Shown here: in pieces, positions 24,332 through 31,738 of the stretch
Numbering within the stretch: position 1 is the first letter of the stretch
How the letters are laid out: every line of letters starts with the position of its first letter
Source: Candidatus Scatomonas pullistercoris
Lineage (GTDB): Bacteria > Bacillota > Clostridia > Lachnospirales > Lachnospiraceae
DNA length: 64,000 bases
Direction of reading: 5' to 3'
NCBI GenBank assembly: GCA_018713515.1
Contig: DVOO01000009.1
Location: forward strand, 62,001-126,000
Position numbers and translations under genes: made by a program
The notes under the pieces: model-generated
The model's input: only the letters and a program-made list of their open reading frames with translations
Database searches by the model: none
What the model was told of the DNA's origin: nothing

Positions 24332-25714
24332 GTGAAAAGCAGAACCAGAGGACATCAGATGGATATGCTGCGGGGACCGATCTGGAATCAGATTCCGCGG
24401 TTTGCATTTCCGGTTGCGGCCACAGCCATTCTGGAGCAGTTATTTAACGCCTCGGATATTGCGGTGGTCGGCAATTTTACCGGCGCGGAGCGGACGGTGT
24501 CGGTCGCGGCGGTGGGAGCCAACAGTTCCATCATAAGCCTGGTTGTCAATCTGTTTATCGGGATAGCGCTGGGGGCCAATGTGGCGATCGCCCATGCGGT
24601 CGGCAGGAATGACAGGGAAGAGGTGCAGAAAACGGTACATACATCGATAGTTGTGGCGCTTCTGGGAGGAATTCTGGTGACCCTGGCGGGAGAGCTGGCC
24701 GCCGCGCCGGTTCTGCGGCTGCTTCAGGTGCCGGAGGATGTATTTCCGCCGGCCCTGCTGTATTTAAGAATTTATCTGATCGGCATGCCGGTCATTCTGC
24801 TGTATAATTTTGAGGCGGCCATATTCCGCAGCGTGGGTGAGACGAGGACGCCGCTGCTGGCCCTGGCATTTTCCGGGGGCCTGAATGTGGTGCTGAATCT
24901 TTTCTTCGTCATTGTTCTGCATATGACCGTCAACGGCGTGGCGATTGCCACAGTCATCTCCAATGGCGTCAGCTCCGTCATCCTGTATCAGAAGCTCAGA
25001 CACTCGCCGCGGGAGATCCGTGTATCGGCCGGAAAGCTGAAGATTGATGGGGCGAGTCTGAAGAGAATATTCAGAATCGGGCTTCCCGCAGGTATTCAAA
25101 GCGCTGTATTTTCCGTGGCGAATATCGTGATTCAGTCCTCCATAAACAGCCTGGGAACGGTGGTCATGGCGGCCTCCAGCGCGGCTTACAATATCGAAGT
25201 GATCACCTATGACATCCTGAATTCTTTCAGCCAGGCCTGTACCACCTTTGTGGGACAGAATTACGGAGCGGGACAGATAAAGCGGTGCAGAAAAACGCTG
25301 CTGCTCTGTATCCTTGAAGGGCTAATCACCCTTGTGGCGGTGATCGCCCTGCTCCTGTTCTTCGGGCGTACGCTTCTGTCCATCTTCAACAGTGACCCCG
25401 AGGTGGTGTCGGTGGGATATGTCCGGCTGCTGACAATCATGACGGCCCATGTATTCAGCCTGCTGTATGAGGTGATGTCCGGGTATCTGCGGGGATTCGG
25501 CATTTCTCTCGTGCCTGCCGTGCTGACAATTATCGGCGTATGCGGCATACGTATCCTGTGGATTCAGTTTGTATTTCCCCACAGCCGGACCTTCCAGACG
25601 ATCATGAATGTCTATCCCATCAGTCTTTCGGCCACGGCGGTGATGATTTTTGCCGCGGTGATGTATTATATTTATAAGCACAGGAGAGAAGGGCGGCAGA
25701 AAACAGACGAATAG
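24332..25714 (+). CDS. MATE family efflux transporter
   Basis: This 460-residue protein is a second MATE antiporter. It shows the two-fold repeat with IPRFAFPVAATAILEQLFNASDIAVVGNF in the first half (split by neither frameshift nor stop) and IFRIGLPAGIQSAVFS plus FVGQNYGAGQ in the second. About 12 hydrophobic stretches are present. The GTG at 24332 follows GAGAGGGGAG; an in-frame ATG at 24359 is less well placed. It stands alone and faces the tetR gene across a perfect inverted repeat. Whether the TetR protein also controls it is unknown. Confidence 0.92.
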   Translation: MKSRTRGHQMDMLRGPIWNQIPRFAFPVAATAILEQLFNASDIAVVGNFTGAERTVSVAAVGANSSIISLVVNLFIGIALGANVAIAHAVGRNDREEVQKTVHTSIVVALLGGILVTLAGELAAAPVLRLLQVPEDVFPPALLYLRIYLIGMPVILLYNFEAAIFRSVGETRTPLLALAFSGGLNVVLNLFFVIVLHMTVNGVAIATVISNGVSSVILYQKLRHSPREIRVSAGKLKIDGASLKRIFRIGLPAGIQSAVFSVANIVIQSSINSLGTVVMAASSAAYNIEVITYDILNSFSQACTTFVGQNYGAGQIKRCRKTLLLCILEGLITLVAVIALLLFFGRTLLSIFNSDPEVVSVGYVRLLTIMTAHVFSLLYEVMSGYLRGFGISLVPAVLTIIGVCGIRILWIQFVFPHSRTFQTIMNVYPISLSATAVMIFAAVMYYIYKHRREGRQKTDE

Positions 25715-25790: not shown

Positions 25791-26402
25791 TTAGATGGCC
25801 ATCAGAAAATTCAGGGATCCCGGCGGATTCTCCGTCCCTTTTTCCAGAAGGGAGATAAGCCCGGCAATGGTATCCCGCACCTCTTCCCGGGAGGTTTCCA
25901 CAATGGAATTATCCAGCTTGACGGTGAGAACAATGAGAACGATCTCCGCCAGAGCTTCCGGGCGGTCGAAATGGATCTCCCCCTGGCGGATGCCCTGCCG
26001 TATGATCTCCGCCAGCACAGGCTTCAGCTCCAGGACAATGTGACTGACATACCGCTGGTGAAGAAAGGCTTTTTCCGGCGCGTCCACCGCTGTATTTGTC
26101 TCGGACTTTAAGAATTCACTGGAAGAATTGCGGCAAGCCTGGAAGATCATGGCCATCCGCGTGAAGGGCGAGATAGAGGACTGGGAAGCCAGCTCTTTCG
26201 CGGTTTTCAGCGGTTCCTCATAGCTTCTTTCAATCAGCGCCTCAAAAATGGCATCCTTGGACGGAAAATAGTAGTAGATGCTTCCCTTTCCGATTTCCGC
26301 GGCCTGAGCGATCTCGCTGACGGAAATGGTCTGGAGACTCCTGGTGCGCAGGAGCATCTGGAGAGCGTCCAGAATCCGGTCATGTTTATTTTTATTTTGC
26401 AT
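25791..26402 (-). CDS. TetR/AcrR-family transcriptional regulator
   Basis: This 203-residue regulator has a TetR helix-turn-helix at about residues 27-46 (ISVSEIAQAAEIGKGSIYYYF), with a divergent ligand-binding domain typical of small-molecule-sensing repressors. I use the ATG at 26402, preceded by AGAGGTG; a longer in-frame start would add 14 residues with no ribosome site. It diverges from the SCP2-to-ligase operon and very probably represses it through the two operators at 26537-26590. Its own promoter (TTGTAC 26472-26477, TATACT 26448-26453, minus strand) lies in the same gap. Confidence 0.92.
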   Translation of the reverse strand: MQNKNKHDRILDALQMLLRTRSLQTISVSEIAQAAEIGKGSIYYYFPSKDAIFEALIERSYEEPLKTAKELASQSSISPFTRMAMIFQACRNSSSEFLKSETNTAVDAPEKAFLHQRYVSHIVLELKPVLAEIIRQGIRQGEIHFDRPEALAEIVLIVLTVKLDNSIVETSREEVRDTIAGLISLLEKGTENPPGSLNFLMAI

Positions 26403-26447
26403 ATATAACACCTCTTTATGCAGGCGGCTATCTGGAAATTTCAATTC

Positions 26448-26534: not shown

Positions 26535-26590
26535 TTGACCGTTGGTCGAAAAAATGGTACTGTAACTGTAAAGAAAGTTGACCAACGGTC
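26535..26590 (+). promoter_or_regulatory. Promoter with two TetR-type operators for the 26632-31116 operon
   Basis: The promoter is TTGACC (26535-26540) and TACTGT (26558-26563) with a 17-base spacer. GACCGTTGGTC (26537-26547) covers the -35 box, and its exact reverse complement GACCAACGGTC (26580-26590) lies just after the predicted start. Centres are 43 bp apart, about four helical turns, and both are followed by GAAAAAA/GAAAAAA-like text, consistent with repression by two TetR dimers. Confidence 0.8.
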
Positions 26591-26631
26591 GAAAAAAGTA
26601 AAAAGCAAGAGGATTCAAGGAGGAACGAGCA

Positions 26632-26961
26632 ATGACATATGCAGAACTGTTTTCGGAAATAAAGGGGATGCTGGCGGACGCGGATGTCAGCCATGTAGAG
26701 GAGCATCTGGCCTACCAGTTCAATATTACCGGAGAGGGCGAAGGCATCTTTTACGCGGAGATTAAGGAGGGCAAGCTGTACGTGGAACCCTATGAATATT
26801 TTGACCGGGATGTAATCTTTACCTGCTCGGCGGATACTCTCCTGAAGATTATGGCAGGCAAAAAGGATCCTGTTCTGGCTTTTACCCTGGGACAGCTGAA
26901 GGTGGAGGGCAGTATTGAAAAAGCTTTGAAACTGAAAGAACTTGTAAAAGACAGGAAGTAA
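26632..26961 (+). CDS. SCP2 sterol-binding domain protein
   Basis: This 109-residue protein consists of one SCP2 (sterol carrier protein 2) domain, a fold with a hydrophobic cavity that binds lipids or acyl chains. The family text YEYFDRDVIFTCSADTLLKIM and the G-x-L-K-V-E-G-S-I-E-K-A region near residue 92 are clear. There is no signal peptide. As first gene of the TetR-controlled operon, upstream of a condensation enzyme, ACP and ligase, it may carry a fatty acyl substrate or product; that is inference. AAGGAGG precedes the ATG. Confidence 0.88.
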   Translation: MTYAELFSEIKGMLADADVSHVEEHLAYQFNITGEGEGIFYAEIKEGKLYVEPYEYFDRDVIFTCSADTLLKIMAGKKDPVLAFTLGQLKVEGSIEKALKLKELVKDRK

Positions 26962-26968
26962 TGCGGAA

Positions 26969-27913
26969 ATGGGAAAAGTTCTGACAGGAGCAGTCATTCT
27001 GGCTGCTGCTGCGGCCGCCGCGGTCGCAGGAATTACTGCGTATTTTTATAAAAGAACCATGAAGCGTTCCCGGGCCAGGACGGAGCGAACCATGAAAATG
27101 TCCGGTACGGACTGGACACAGTATATGCCCATGATGAGGGAGAGGAGAGCCTGGATGGAAGCGCAGCCCCATGAGGATGTGTGGCTCCGGTCGAAGGATG
27201 GACTGAAGCTCCATGGCACCTATTTTCCCGGAGAGGAGGGGAAAAAAGCGGTTATCTGTTTTCACGGCTATACCAGCCGGGGGATGGACGACTATGTGGG
27301 GCTGTCCGCTTACTATCTGAAGCATGGATTCCGGATGCTGCTGGTGGATGAAAGAGCGCATGGGGACAGCGAGGGAGAATATATCGGCTTTGGCTGTCTG
27401 GACCGGTTTGACGGCATGCAGTGGGTGCGCTGGATGATTGGAAAAGCCGGCAGGGATGCGGAGATCCTGCTCCACGGAACTTCCATGGGGGCGTCGACAG
27501 TCCTGATGATGACGGGACTTTTGCTTCCCGGACAGGTGAAGGGTGTGGTTTCGGACTGTGCCTTCACATCGCCCAGGGAGGTATTCACCCATGTGCTCCA
27601 CTCCATGTACCATATGCCGGCATTTCCGCTGATTCCCCTGGCCGACCGGATCAACCGGAAAAAGGCGGGGTACGGGCTGGATACCTGCAATGCCGCCAGA
27701 GAAGTGCGCAGGGCGAAGATTCCGGCGCTTCTGATCCATGGGGACCGGGATACCTTTGTCCCCTGCGGCATGTGCGATGTTATTTATGAAAACTACGCGG
27801 GCCCCAAAACGAAAAAGATCTTTCATGGGGCCGGCCACGCGGAAAGCTATTATAAGGATCCGGCTGCCTATGAGCAGGCGCTGGATACATTTACGGAGGG
27901 AATAATAAAATGA
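26969..27913 (+). CDS. Membrane-anchored alpha/beta hydrolase
   Basis: This 314-residue protein has an N-terminal hydrophobic segment (about residues 5-27) followed by basic residues, so it is membrane anchored with the catalytic part probably in the cytoplasm or, if a signal, outside. The alpha/beta hydrolase triad is visible: nucleophile S172 in GTSMG, acid in HGDRDTFVP and histidine in GAGHAESY. The oxyanion text CFHGYTSRGMDD is present. Within this operon it could release product from the carrier or hydrolyse an acyl precursor. It overlaps the next gene by 4 bases. Confidence 0.87.
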   Translation: MGKVLTGAVILAAAAAAAVAGITAYFYKRTMKRSRARTERTMKMSGTDWTQYMPMMRERRAWMEAQPHEDVWLRSKDGLKLHGTYFPGEEGKKAVICFHGYTSRGMDDYVGLSAYYLKHGFRMLLVDERAHGDSEGEYIGFGCLDRFDGMQWVRWMIGKAGRDAEILLHGTSMGASTVLMMTGLLLPGQVKGVVSDCAFTSPREVFTHVLHSMYHMPAFPLIPLADRINRKKAGYGLDTCNAAREVRRAKIPALLIHGDRDTFVPCGMCDVIYENYAGPKTKKIFHGAGHAESYYKDPAAYEQALDTFTEGIIK

Positions 27914-29316
27914 TGAAGACAAGAAAAGGGCACCCGGTCTATCCGCTGACAGTCGCTCAGAAGTTTCATTTGTTTTACCAGGCATTCTGTCCCAAAAAGG
28001 AGGTCCTGAATATCGGTACCAGCCTGACCATCGATACGGAGATTGACTGGGAGGTGCTCCGAGCGTCCATCTACAAGGCCTACGAGCGGAGCGAGGGTAT
28101 GAGGATCCGCTTTGCGAAGGACAAAGAGGGAAACTGCTACCAGTATATTGCGGATAAAGAGGAGCGGGAAATCGAATTTGTGGATTTCACCGGAAAGACA
28201 GAGGAAGAGGCCGCGGATACCATGCAGGAATGGACGAGGGTTCCCTTTAAATTTCAGGATTCTCCCATGAACCGGATCGTGATGATCCGCACGCCGGACG
28301 GCTACAACGGCGTATATTTTCTGGGGGATCATATGACGGTGGACGCTCAGTCCCTGATCTGCTTCCTGAAGGACATTATCGAGCTGTACTGTAATGCCAA
28401 ATACGAGGGTGTTCCCTATCCGAAGGATATGGCCTCCTATCTGGAGCAGCTGAAAAAGGATCTGGCCTATGAGGCTGGAAGCCGGGCCCAGCAGAGGGAC
28501 CGGGAGTATTTCCATAAGCTGATTGAAGAATCGGAGCCCATCTATAACGGCATTTACGGCCGGCAGGGACTGGAGTTCACAAGACAGAAGCTGCAGGATC
28601 CGACTCTCCGCGCGGCCTGGAATACCTCGGACTCCGTAGATTCCGCTCTGGACATTTTTCATCTGGAAGCAGAGCCTACCAGCCGTCTGATGGCTTTCTG
28701 CGAAAAATACCATGTGTCCATGGTGTGCCTGCTGCTGATGGGCATCCGCACCTATTTCCAGAAGATGAATGGCTTCGACGATGTAAGCATCAACACAGCC
28801 ATCGCACGGCGCGCGACGCTCCTGGAGAAGAAGTCCGGAGGCACCCGGATCCATTCCTTCCCCTTCCGCACCATTATCCCGGAGTCAAAGACTTTCCTGG
28901 AAGGCATCTATGCGATCCGGGATAAGCAGAATGAAATGTTCCGCCACGCGAACTTTGACCCTGTGGAGTATTTTGCGTACCGCAGTAAGATTTATCCCCA
29001 GAAGGAGAAGGGGCTCACCTATGAGCCCATGTCCCTGACGTACCAGCCTCTGACCCTGAAGGAAAAAGGCCTGGATCAGCTGGGAGATATCCGCTACAAG
29101 ACCCGCTGGTATCCCAACGGAGCCACCACCCAGGCCATGTATCTGACCGTTATGCACCGGCCCGATGACAACGGCATGGATTTTAACTTCGAGCACCAGG
29201 TAAAAGCCGTTTCCAAAAAGGATCTGGAATATTTCTATTATTATCTCTGCCGGATCCTGTTCAAGGGCATTGAAAATCCCGATCTGACCATCGGCGATAT
29301 TATAAAACTGGTATAA
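27910..29316 (+). CDS. Free-standing condensation-domain (NRPS C-domain-like) protein
   Basis: This 468-residue protein belongs to the condensation/CoA-dependent acyltransferase superfamily, as used in nonribosomal peptide synthetases. The active site motif HHxxxDG appears as D140-H141-M-T-V-D145-A146: the catalytic second histidine and the aspartate are kept, the first histidine and glycine are replaced. The length covers both lobes of one C domain and nothing else. It would join an acyl or aminoacyl group from the ACP to a nucleophile such as an amine. The start overlaps the hydrolase stop. Confidence 0.85.
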   Translation: MMKTRKGHPVYPLTVAQKFHLFYQAFCPKKEVLNIGTSLTIDTEIDWEVLRASIYKAYERSEGMRIRFAKDKEGNCYQYIADKEEREIEFVDFTGKTEEEAADTMQEWTRVPFKFQDSPMNRIVMIRTPDGYNGVYFLGDHMTVDAQSLICFLKDIIELYCNAKYEGVPYPKDMASYLEQLKKDLAYEAGSRAQQRDREYFHKLIEESEPIYNGIYGRQGLEFTRQKLQDPTLRAAWNTSDSVDSALDIFHLEAEPTSRLMAFCEKYHVSMVCLLLMGIRTYFQKMNGFDDVSINTAIARRATLLEKKSGGTRIHSFPFRTIIPESKTFLEGIYAIRDKQNEMFRHANFDPVEYFAYRSKIYPQKEKGLTYEPMSLTYQPLTLKEKGLDQLGDIRYKTRWYPNGATTQAMYLTVMHRPDDNGMDFNFEHQVKAVSKKDLEYFYYYLCRILFKGIENPDLTIGDIIKLV

Positions 29317-29365
29317 ACAGTGTTTAGAAATCACGCAGTCCTATCTGCGCACAGGAGGAGCAAAG

Positions 29366-29593
29366 ATGTTTGATAAATTAGTGAAGATTATCTGTAATTA
29401 TGTGGAAGTGGAGCCGGAGAATATTCATCCGGAATCCAGATTCGTGGAGGATCTGGGATTTACCTCCTTTGATTTTATGAGTATGCTGGGTGAGATTGAG
29501 GACGAATGGGACGTTGAGATCGATCAGGATAAGGCCGTAAATATCCGCACGGTGGGCGAGGCTGTGGATTATCTGCAGACCCTGGCTGACTGA
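29366..29593 (+). CDS. Acyl carrier / peptidyl carrier protein
   Basis: This 75-residue acyl carrier protein carries substrates as thioesters on a phosphopantetheine arm. The attachment serine is S34 in DLGFTSFDFM, a variant of the usual DSL motif. It is acidic, as carriers are. It is separate from the fatty-acid synthesis genes and sits between a condensation protein and a ligase, so it is probably dedicated to this pathway. A phosphopantetheinyl transferase is not encoded here and must come from elsewhere. GGAGG precedes the ATG. Confidence 0.92.
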   Translation: MFDKLVKIICNYVEVEPENIHPESRFVEDLGFTSFDFMSMLGEIEDEWDVEIDQDKAVNIRTVGEAVDYLQTLAD

Positions 29594-29610
29594 CAGAAAA
29601 GGGGGAAATT

Positions 29611-31116
29611 ATGGTCTGCAGCACAATTCGAGATATTCTGACCGGCACGGAGGCCAGGTATGGAGACCAGGACGCCGTCCGGTATAAGGTGGAAAAAAAT
29701 GAAACCGCATCGAAGACCTACTCGGAGCTGAAAAGGGACAGTGAAAGTTTCTCCTGTGCTCTTCGGGAGCTGGGGGAGCAGGGAAGCCATATTGCCATTA
29801 TTGGCAGAACTTCTTATGAATGGCTGCTTTCCTATTTCGGAATTGTGGACGGAGGAAGTGTGGCTGTTCCGCTGGATGCGTCCCTTCCGGCTGCCGATCT
29901 CTGCGAGCTCCTGGACCGGGCGGATGTAACCGCTCTGGTCTTTGATGAGGTGCGCAGGGATGTGGCTGAGATGGCAGGGGAGAGATGTCCGAAGCTGAAG
30001 CACCGGATCTCCATGAAGGCTGACGGAGAGAAAGAGATTCTTTCTCTCCCGGAGCTGCTGGAACAATACGGGGGAGCCTTTGACTGCAGGCCGGAGCCGG
30101 ATCAGCTTTGCACCATCCTCTTTACCTCCGGTACCACCGGAAAAAGCAAGGGCGTTATGCTGACTCACCGCAACCTGGCTGAAAATGCCACCTGCCTTGA
30201 CATGAAGATCCCGGAGCGCACGGTAATTTTGTCGGTGCTGCCCATCCACCACGCCTACTGCCTCAGCATGGATATTCTGAAGGCCATGTCTCTGGGCAGC
30301 GTGATCTGCATCAATGATTCACTCATGCGGGTGGTAAAAAATATCAAACTTTTTAAGCCGGAGATGATCCTGATGGTTCCGCTGATGATCGAAACCATCG
30401 CCAAAAAGCTGCAGGAGTCTGCTCTGCTCCCGGCCGCCCTGGTAAAAAGCCAGGTGTTTGGAAAACAGTTTCACACCATCTGCAGCGGCGGCGCGTATCT
30501 GGATCCCTCCTACATTGATCTGTTTCAGAAGTACGGAATCACCATTCTGCAGGGATACGGCATGACGGAGTGTTCGCCGGTAATCAGTACTACGGTCAGC
30601 TGGAATATACGGAAGGATGCCGTGGGACAGCTGCTTCCCAACTGCGAGGCCAGGACCGTGGAGGGAGAGCTCTGGGTACGGGGCAGCAGCGTGATGCAGG
30701 GATATTACAAAATGCCGGAGGAGACAGAGGAGGCCCTGGAGGACGGCTGGCTTAAGACCGGGGATCTGGGGTATGTGGACGGGGAAGGCTTTGTCTACCT
30801 GACCGGCCGGAAAAAGAACCTGATCATTACCAAAAACGGGGAAAATGTTTCCCCGGAGGAGCTGGAAAACCGGCTGAGCCAGAATCGTCTCGTGAAAGAA
30901 ATCCTGGTGAGAGAAGCAGAGGGAGTGATTGAGGCGGAGATCTATCCGGATCAGGACTACATAAAGAAAAAGAGGATCCGGGATGTGCGGGAAGCCCTGC
31001 AGAAGGCCATTGATGATTACAATGCGGAAGCGCCGCTGTACAAGCGGATCTACCGACTGAAGATAAGAGATACGGAATTTGAGAAAACAACATCCAAGAA
31101 AATAAAAAGATTCTGA
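29611..31116 (+). CDS. AMP-dependent acyl/aminoacyl ligase
   Basis: This 501-residue adenylate-forming enzyme activates a carboxylic acid with ATP and would load it onto the ACP encoded just upstream. The phosphate-binding loop LFTSGTTGKSKGVMLTH is near residue 167, followed by GYGMTECSP, the hinge region GDLGYVDGEGFVYLTGRKKNLI and the C-terminal catalytic lysine region TTSKKIKRF. The fatty-acyl-type GEGFVYLTGR text suggests a fatty or aryl acid rather than a standard amino acid, but specificity cannot be read reliably. It is the last gene of the operon; no convincing terminator follows (see 31124). Confidence 0.9.
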   Translation: MVCSTIRDILTGTEARYGDQDAVRYKVEKNETASKTYSELKRDSESFSCALRELGEQGSHIAIIGRTSYEWLLSYFGIVDGGSVAVPLDASLPAADLCELLDRADVTALVFDEVRRDVAEMAGERCPKLKHRISMKADGEKEILSLPELLEQYGGAFDCRPEPDQLCTILFTSGTTGKSKGVMLTHRNLAENATCLDMKIPERTVILSVLPIHHAYCLSMDILKAMSLGSVICINDSLMRVVKNIKLFKPEMILMVPLMIETIAKKLQESALLPAALVKSQVFGKQFHTICSGGAYLDPSYIDLFQKYGITILQGYGMTECSPVISTTVSWNIRKDAVGQLLPNCEARTVEGELWVRGSSVMQGYYKMPEETEEALEDGWLKTGDLGYVDGEGFVYLTGRKKNLIITKNGENVSPEELENRLSQNRLVKEILVREAEGVIEAEIYPDQDYIKKKRIRDVREALQKAIDDYNAEAPLYKRIYRLKIRDTEFEKTTSKKIKRF

Positions 31117-31158: not shown

Positions 31159-31653
31159 CTATTTATAGCTCAATTTTTCTGATAACGCCAGATACTCGTC
31201 GGCATTCCGGCTCAGATCCTCCTTCTCCTGTTCTGTCAAAGACCGCCGGATACGGGCGGGACTGCCCATCACCAGCGAACCGTCCGGAATCCGCGTTCCC
31301 TTTGTCACAAGGCTTCCGGCGGCAACCAGGCAGTTCTTTCCGATCACTGCTTTATCCAGCACAATGGCTCCCATGCCGATCAGACTCCCGTCACCCACGG
31401 TACAGCTGTGCAGCACCGCATTGTGGCCCACCGTCACCCGGTCTCCGATCACTGCGGGCATCTCCCGGCTCACATGTACCGTACAGTTTTCCTGAATATT
31501 GGTTTCACACCCGATGGTCACAGGCGCTTCATCCCCCCGGATTACGCTGCAGTACCAGACGCTGCTGCGCCTGCCGATGGTTACATCTCCCACAATTACT
31601 GCTTCCGCAGCGATCTTCGCCTCCGGATCAATATTGGGATTTCCGTAAATCAT
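31159..31653 (-). CDS. Gamma-class carbonic anhydrase-like protein
   Basis: This 164-residue left-handed beta-helix protein consists of hexapeptide repeats and belongs to the gamma carbonic anhydrase family (YrdA/PaaY-like). The histidines expected to bind metal are visible in CTVHVSREMPAVIGDRVTVGH and VLHSC (the H residues of TVH, VGH and LHS). It may interconvert carbon dioxide and bicarbonate, but many relatives lack proven activity. The ATG at 31653 follows GGAGGGGG; an in-frame upstream start adds 17 residues without support. It is convergent to the ligase operon. Confidence 0.88.
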   Translation of the reverse strand: MIYGNPNIDPEAKIAAEAVIVGDVTIGRRSSVWYCSVIRGDEAPVTIGCETNIQENCTVHVSREMPAVIGDRVTVGHNAVLHSCTVGDGSLIGMGAIVLDKAVIGKNCLVAAGSLVTKGTRIPDGSLVMGSPARIRRSLTEQEKEDLSRNADEYLALSEKLSYK

Positions 31654-31738
31654 ATGCCCCCTCCTTCCTTGAATACGCCAAAGCTTTGTCCTCCTGTCCG
31701 GCAAAAGTCTGGCTGCAGCCGGATTTTTCTTATTTTAT

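Follow-up and report, generated by a model that had tools for sequence, protein, structure and literature searches.

The window analysed here, a stretch of 64,000 nucleotides of Candidatus Scatomonas pullistercoris (contig DVOO01000009.1, positions 62,001 to 126,000) from a 2.35-Mb Lachnospiraceae assembly, contains what is very probably an operon for the synthesis of an N-acyl amide, repressed by a divergently encoded TetR-family protein. Its five genes encode, in order, an SCP2-fold lipid-binding protein, an alpha/beta hydrolase (ABH), a stand-alone condensation (C) protein, a stand-alone acyl carrier protein (ACP, or T) and an AMP-forming acyl ligase, the adenylating (A) protein. This reading draws on gene content and gene order, on active-site motifs, on the homology of the C protein to OaaC of Coprococcus eutactus, and on an operator pair that is both conserved among relatives and exclusive to this promoter. 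The kind of pathway is known; the version with SCP2, which is widespread, is apparently undescribed.

Fatty acid amides (FAAs) made by gut Clostridia are hormone-like lipids that target human G-protein-coupled receptors; a 2021 report by Chang et al. is said to be the founding paper on the FAA gene clusters of these bacteria. A related "CTA" operon has been described in Blautia and Coprococcus as a set of three genes, and isolates that carry it make more acyl amines than those that do not (PMC13060934). Release of GLP-1 and resistance to fatty acids have been connected with such operons in a 2026 preprint. The operon of the window has in common with the Chang clusters and the CTA operon the C-T-A order in Lachnospiraceae and, by prediction, the conjugation of exogenous fatty acids with amines, but it differs from the three-gene form in having five genes and a divergent TetR gene with two operators. 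A literature search for SCP2 proteins or regulators as partners of these operons returned nothing relevant.

Membership in this family is clearest in the C protein. Compared with all PDB sequences, it matches entry 12kh over residues 10-467 with 379 bits (2.7e-112), the next chain reaching 40 bits. We take 12kh to be OaaC of C. eutactus because the entry is named 'Condensation Domain Protein', carries a DHxxxDS motif and fits the structure described in PMC13142362. OaaC couples free amines in vitro with fatty acids carried on ACP and does not use oleoyl-CoA, forms a homodimer that is opened by holo- or acyl-ACP, and is placed in a clade of C domains whose motif is (D/H)HxxxDS/A; in the FAA set the His and Asp of this motif are nearly invariant and are followed by Ser (42%) or Ala (36%) (PMC13142362). 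The active site of the window's protein, DHMTVDA, fits this pattern. An earlier note on this DNA, made from the sequence alone, had pointed out His141 and Asp145 of the C protein, as kept, and Ser34 of the ACP, and alignment finds the former two invariant in 21 aligned relatives and the latter invariant in 106 homologues. The A3, A5 and A7 motifs of the ligase are also conserved, and its best NCBIfam model is long-chain-fatty-acid--CoA ligase at 245 bits, below that model's cut-off. A free-standing carrier and a free-standing ligase follow the C gene in C-T-A order, and relatives keep the order. Since the C protein resembles OaaC over its full length, the operon is, as judged by homology, a member of the known FAA ("CTA") family, and the acyl-amide pathway put forward in the earlier note is well supported, with the product itself predicted. 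The Oaa cluster of C. eutactus (OaaA, OaaACP and OaaC) likewise has a free-standing C protein, ACP and adenylating ligase and a (D/H)HxxxD active site, but it carries Ser after the Asp where the window's protein carries Ala, and SCP2 is an addition here; the published text on the cluster mentions neither a hydrolase nor an SCP (PMC13142362). When we searched for the operon that encodes OaaC, the matches were relatives of up to 57% identity, C. eutactus not among them. In a canonical modular nonribosomal peptide synthetase (NRPS) the C, A and T domains lie on one polypeptide, whereas here they occupy three separate open reading frames (ORFs).

A comparative gene-neighbourhood search, which the earlier note had proposed, found the five-gene order conserved in dozens of Lachnospiraceae genomes. 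A scan of species genomes by means of the C gene gave 77 named loci with C proteins at 67-88% identity, and SCP2 and the hydrolase precede C in all 75 of the 77 that have enough upstream sequence, with TetR divergent upstream of SCP2 in most loci. The arrangement TetR<>SCP2-ABH-C-ACP-A recurs across the family and is not a matter of chance. When 200 genomes of the family were sampled, 31 were found to encode an OaaC-family C protein, and in 21 of these (the window's own genome included) it is at least 55% identical to that of the window; two genomes at this level have no adjacent SCP2, one of them with a MarR-type gene instead (L124 in G029; the other is L221 in G022). The OaaC-type loci, by contrast, have C proteins at 34-39% to that of the window and C-ACP-A without SCP2. 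We compared 21 of them that have ACP and ligase (L110-L116, L118, L185-L197): in 14 a related hydrolase gene lies next to the operon, and in 11 the genes run ABH-C-ACP-A with a TetR gene convergent behind them. Other Clostridia families have ABH-C-ACP-A with an adjoining phosphopantetheinyl transferase (PPTase) or MerR-type gene.

Because the hydrolase and TetR are common in OaaC-type operons, they are general features of the system, and SCP2 is the branch-specific one. In a tree of the C proteins whose rows are OaaC relatives only, without canonical or starter C domains, all 27 rows with SCP2 fall into one group at the cost of two label changes, because L157, which has no SCP2, is nested inside it; one branch of the tree is thus marked by SCP2. 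Every aligned row of this branch has Ala after the motif Asp, and the signature following the catalytic His is DAQSLI, against DSxG in the OaaC branch. The earlier note had suggested that the SCP2, the membrane hydrolase and the TetR control might together define a distinct variant, a view that holds for SCP2 and falls away for the other two. The genus of L048 (labelled Blautia) holds both types, with an SCP2-branch C protein in 13 genomes, an OaaC-like one in 12 and neither in 39. Several further loci depart from the common plan. FAA-like operons at L120, L161 and L164 have an adjoining PPTase gene, the order at L120 being C-A-ACP-PPTase-ABC transporter, and OaaC-family C genes at L117 (beside a LacI-type gene), L119 and L201 stand without adjacent ACP or ligase and are possible orphan acyltransferases. 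At L072 ([Ruminococcus] faecis JCM 15917) the ligase is split from ~9718 onward into two ORFs of 156 and 361 aa by a frameshift that belongs either to the strain or to the assembly.

The SCP2 protein, the sole SCP2 of the window's genome, gave a structural model with pLDDT 90.8 that matches SCP2 folds over its full length at Z ~14, among them mosquito SCP-2 with a C16 fatty acid at Z 13.6. With the SCP2 family (PF02036) and mosquito SCP-2 with palmitate (1pz4) it shares the fold over the whole protein, but here it is a bacterial protein that stands alone, is encoded behind a pair of TetR operators and is linked to amide synthesis. SCP2 folds in general bind varied lipids, sterols included, and the restriction of this one to a C branch with its own signature would suit an amide whose donor is not a plain fatty acid but a bile acid, a sterol carboxylate, an aryl acid or a branched or hydroxy acid carried with the help of SCP2. 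We consider such a donor unlikely. The ligase scores 245 bits with long-chain fatty acid ligases against 122 bits with the steroid-24-oyl-CoA synthetase model, the C protein and ACP are related to those of a fatty-acyl system, and TetR-SCP2 pairs that have no ligase weaken the case for tying SCP2 to the specificity of the ligase. A reading in which SCP2 supplies the ligases of this branch with an acyl donor other than a fatty acid, such as a bile acid or another sterol carboxylate, and the operon makes an amide class unlike the known FAAs is in our estimation very unlikely.

The pairs just mentioned came from a search of 200 family genomes, in which the SCP2 subfamily also occurs outside the operon: as TetR-SCP2 pairs at L204, L205, L208 and L211, with operator-like sites at the first three, and as solitary SCP2 genes at seven further loci. 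A second, more distant set of SCP2 paralogues (L213-L220, ~118-134 bits) lies in other neighbourhoods in the same family. The tree of this short protein is poorly resolved except for the placement of L205, which nests among operonic copies with good support; since L205 also keeps an N-terminal fragment of the ligase after SCP2, the synthesis genes were lost there while the TetR-SCP2 pair stayed. This suggests that SCP2 is useful by itself, for example by binding a ligand that TetR would also report. The four TetR-SCP2 pairs, which have no C, ACP or intact ligase, make up a series of decayed operons that could reveal the role of SCP2 alone.

Such pairs, together with their operator-like sites and the ligase remnant of L205, also bear on whether the system exists primarily to handle free fatty acids, with TetR and SCP2 as a core response that binds and buffers them and the amide as a means of disposal without any part in signalling. 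The reported toxicity of oleic acid to B. wexlerae, with growth restored by dopamine and other amines (PMC13060934), agrees with that purpose. SCP2, however, stays with the synthesis genes in every one of the 75 assessable named loci (which were found via the C gene), and OaaC-type operons do without it. We regard an amide made purely for disposal as quite possible, if on the whole doubtful; it overlaps the amide-synthesis reading, from which it differs in purpose and not in chemistry. By analogy with what is reported for B. wexlerae, fatty-acid detoxification is a plausible benefit of amide synthesis here.

The hydrolase has a triad, Ser172/Asp261/His290, that is invariant across both branches (18 homologues), and its model (pLDDT 86.5) is closest to Pf2001 esterase at Z 29, with monoglyceride lipases at Z 22-24. 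It shares with these enzymes the alpha/beta hydrolase fold and the Ser-Asp-His triad, but is distinguished from them by a hydrophobic helix at the N-terminus with a strongly positive stretch behind it and by its linkage to the C protein. In 98 of 102 homologues Lys and Arg are more numerous after the helix than before it, which suggests a cytosolic catalytic domain, although in many relatives the hydrophobicity of the helix is moderate. The membrane-anchored hydrolase of the earlier note is thereby refined: the N-terminal hydrophobic helix is present, and the flanking charge would place the catalytic domain inside the cell. An extracellular lipase is disfavoured by the same positive stretch. 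A fully conserved serine-hydrolase triad and a fold near esterases and monoglyceride lipases could also serve an enzyme that breaks down an amide, be it the operon's own product or one from the host, in which case the operon would run a cycle or amide catabolism instead of net synthesis. The evidence, however, stops at an esterase/lipase fold, degradation would be futile beside a co-expressed C protein, ACP and ATP-using ligase, and the hydrolase accompanies OaaC-type operons as well; we find this role quite unlikely.

The operon appears to be controlled from a single promoter between TetR and SCP2. The earlier note had proposed two operators there, and both sites are exact (Table 1), with the consensus TTGACC-NNN-GGTCGAAA; a pair spaced 43/44 bp around the -35 and -10 elements occurs in 53 of 69 loci, and at least one GACCNNNRGTC site lies between TetR and SCP2 in 68 of the 69. 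In 200 mononucleotide shuffles a site was found in a mean of 0.26 loci and the pair never. In the 53 loci with the operator pair, a TG-N-TA extended -10 element behind operator 1 is 96% conserved per base. A promoter scanner did not list the operator-linked promoter, so the promoter claim rests on this conservation instead. The twin-operator promoter is mapped in the SCP2 branch only. The whole 2.35-Mb genome contains exact copies of TTGACCNNNGGTCGAAA at these two positions only, along with one further site at two mismatches; the exact operator being confined to this conserved promoter, the repressor is probably dedicated to it. The TetR protein matches PF00440 (TetR_N) with 49 bits and PF21303 with 37.5 bits; its scores with the BetI and FadR models fall far short of the cut-offs. 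A palindromic site at the divergent promoter, conserved together with the regulator gene, is what a TetR with a local operator would have, and binding is predicted. In the ORF list the TetR gene spans 25791-26444 (217 aa from a TTG at 26444), but its true start is likely the ATG at 26402, which gives a length found in many relatives.

The five co-directional genes reported in the earlier note are all intact, all five proteins match Pfam families above the curated cut-offs, and the genes are closely packed: the C start codon overlaps the hydrolase stop, intergenic gaps are short, and clear ribosome-binding sites can be read off the sequence at SCP2, ACP and the ligase. Neither the MATE transporter gene (24332-25714) nor the hexapeptide gene on the other side (31159-31704) is conserved beside the cassette, and both were rejected as operon members; the latter is a hexapeptide-repeat gamma-carbonic-anhydrase-like gene on the - strand, convergent to the operon. 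An anti-phage role was set aside (none of the five proteins has a PADLOC match), as was a plasmid-borne cassette, the Bacillus matches being weak at 21-23%. A second condensation-domain gene of the genome (G000:C14:65997-66839, L002) is NRPS-like, with C followed by an adenylation domain in a 1410-aa open frame.

Table 1. Genes and promoter elements of the operon, in window coordinates
Feature	Position	Strand	Remarks
TetR-family repressor	25791..26402	-	203 aa from likely ATG at 26402; divergent from operon
Operator 1, TTGACCGTTGGTCGAAA	26535..26551	+	exact match; left half is the -35 hexamer TTGACC
-10 hexamer TACTGT	26558..26563	+	preceded by TGG (extended -10); 17-nt spacer from -35
Operator 2, TTGACCAACGGTCGAAA	26578..26594	+	exact match; 43 bp after operator 1, just past -10
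SCP2-fold lipid-binding protein	26632..26961	+	109 aa; PF02036 50.7 bits (cut-off 21.3)
Alpha/beta hydrolase	26969..27913	+	314 aa; N-terminal hydrophobic helix; Hydrolase_4 41 bits; triad Ser172/Asp261/His290
Stand-alone C protein	27910..29316	+	PF00668 132 bits; motif D140-H-M-T-V-D-A
Stand-alone ACP	29366..29593	+	75 aa; phosphopantetheine site Ser34; PF00550 43 bits
AMP-forming acyl ligase (A protein)	29611..31116	+	501 aa; PF00501 217 bits

From these parts we infer the identity of the acyl group and amine, the roles of SCP2 and the hydrolase, and the binding and ligand of TetR. The ligase would adenylate a carboxylic acid, most probably an imported long-chain fatty acid, and load the acyl group onto holo-ACP, from which the free-standing C protein would pass it to a small diffusible amine with release of the N-acyl amide. 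SCP2 may bind the hydrophobic acid or the product and buffer it or shuttle it between membrane and ligase, and the hydrolase, probably on the inner face of the membrane, may free acyl chains from simple lipid esters or clear stalled acyl-ACP. TetR on its two operators, one overlapping the -35 element and one after the -10, would block the promoter until released by an acyl ligand. One PPTase is encoded elsewhere in the genome. No pyridoxal-dependent decarboxylase match (PF00282) reaches the cut-off there, so the amine is probably scavenged. Three observations weigh against amide synthesis of this kind. The C protein is only ~39-41% identical to OaaC and may therefore use another donor and acceptor; the evidence from living cells may pertain to the other branch, because the genus of L048 has both types and every genome of at least 4 Mb with a match carries the OaaC-like one; and the occurrence of the SCP2 subfamily without synthesis genes makes it not strictly a part of the pathway.

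Apparently new here are the branch marked by SCP2, the operator pair mapped in it, and the recognition that across the wider family the hydrolase and TetR are frequent companions of the operon. A search that relies solely on C, T and A can mix two operon types, both of them present within one genus. The FAA system of these bacteria often includes a hydrolase and a TetR-family regulator and, in a large branch of the Lachnospiraceae, also an SCP2 lipid carrier, and this opens the questions of which inducer acts at an operator now defined to the base, how the ligase is supplied, and whether SCP2 alters the set of amides produced.

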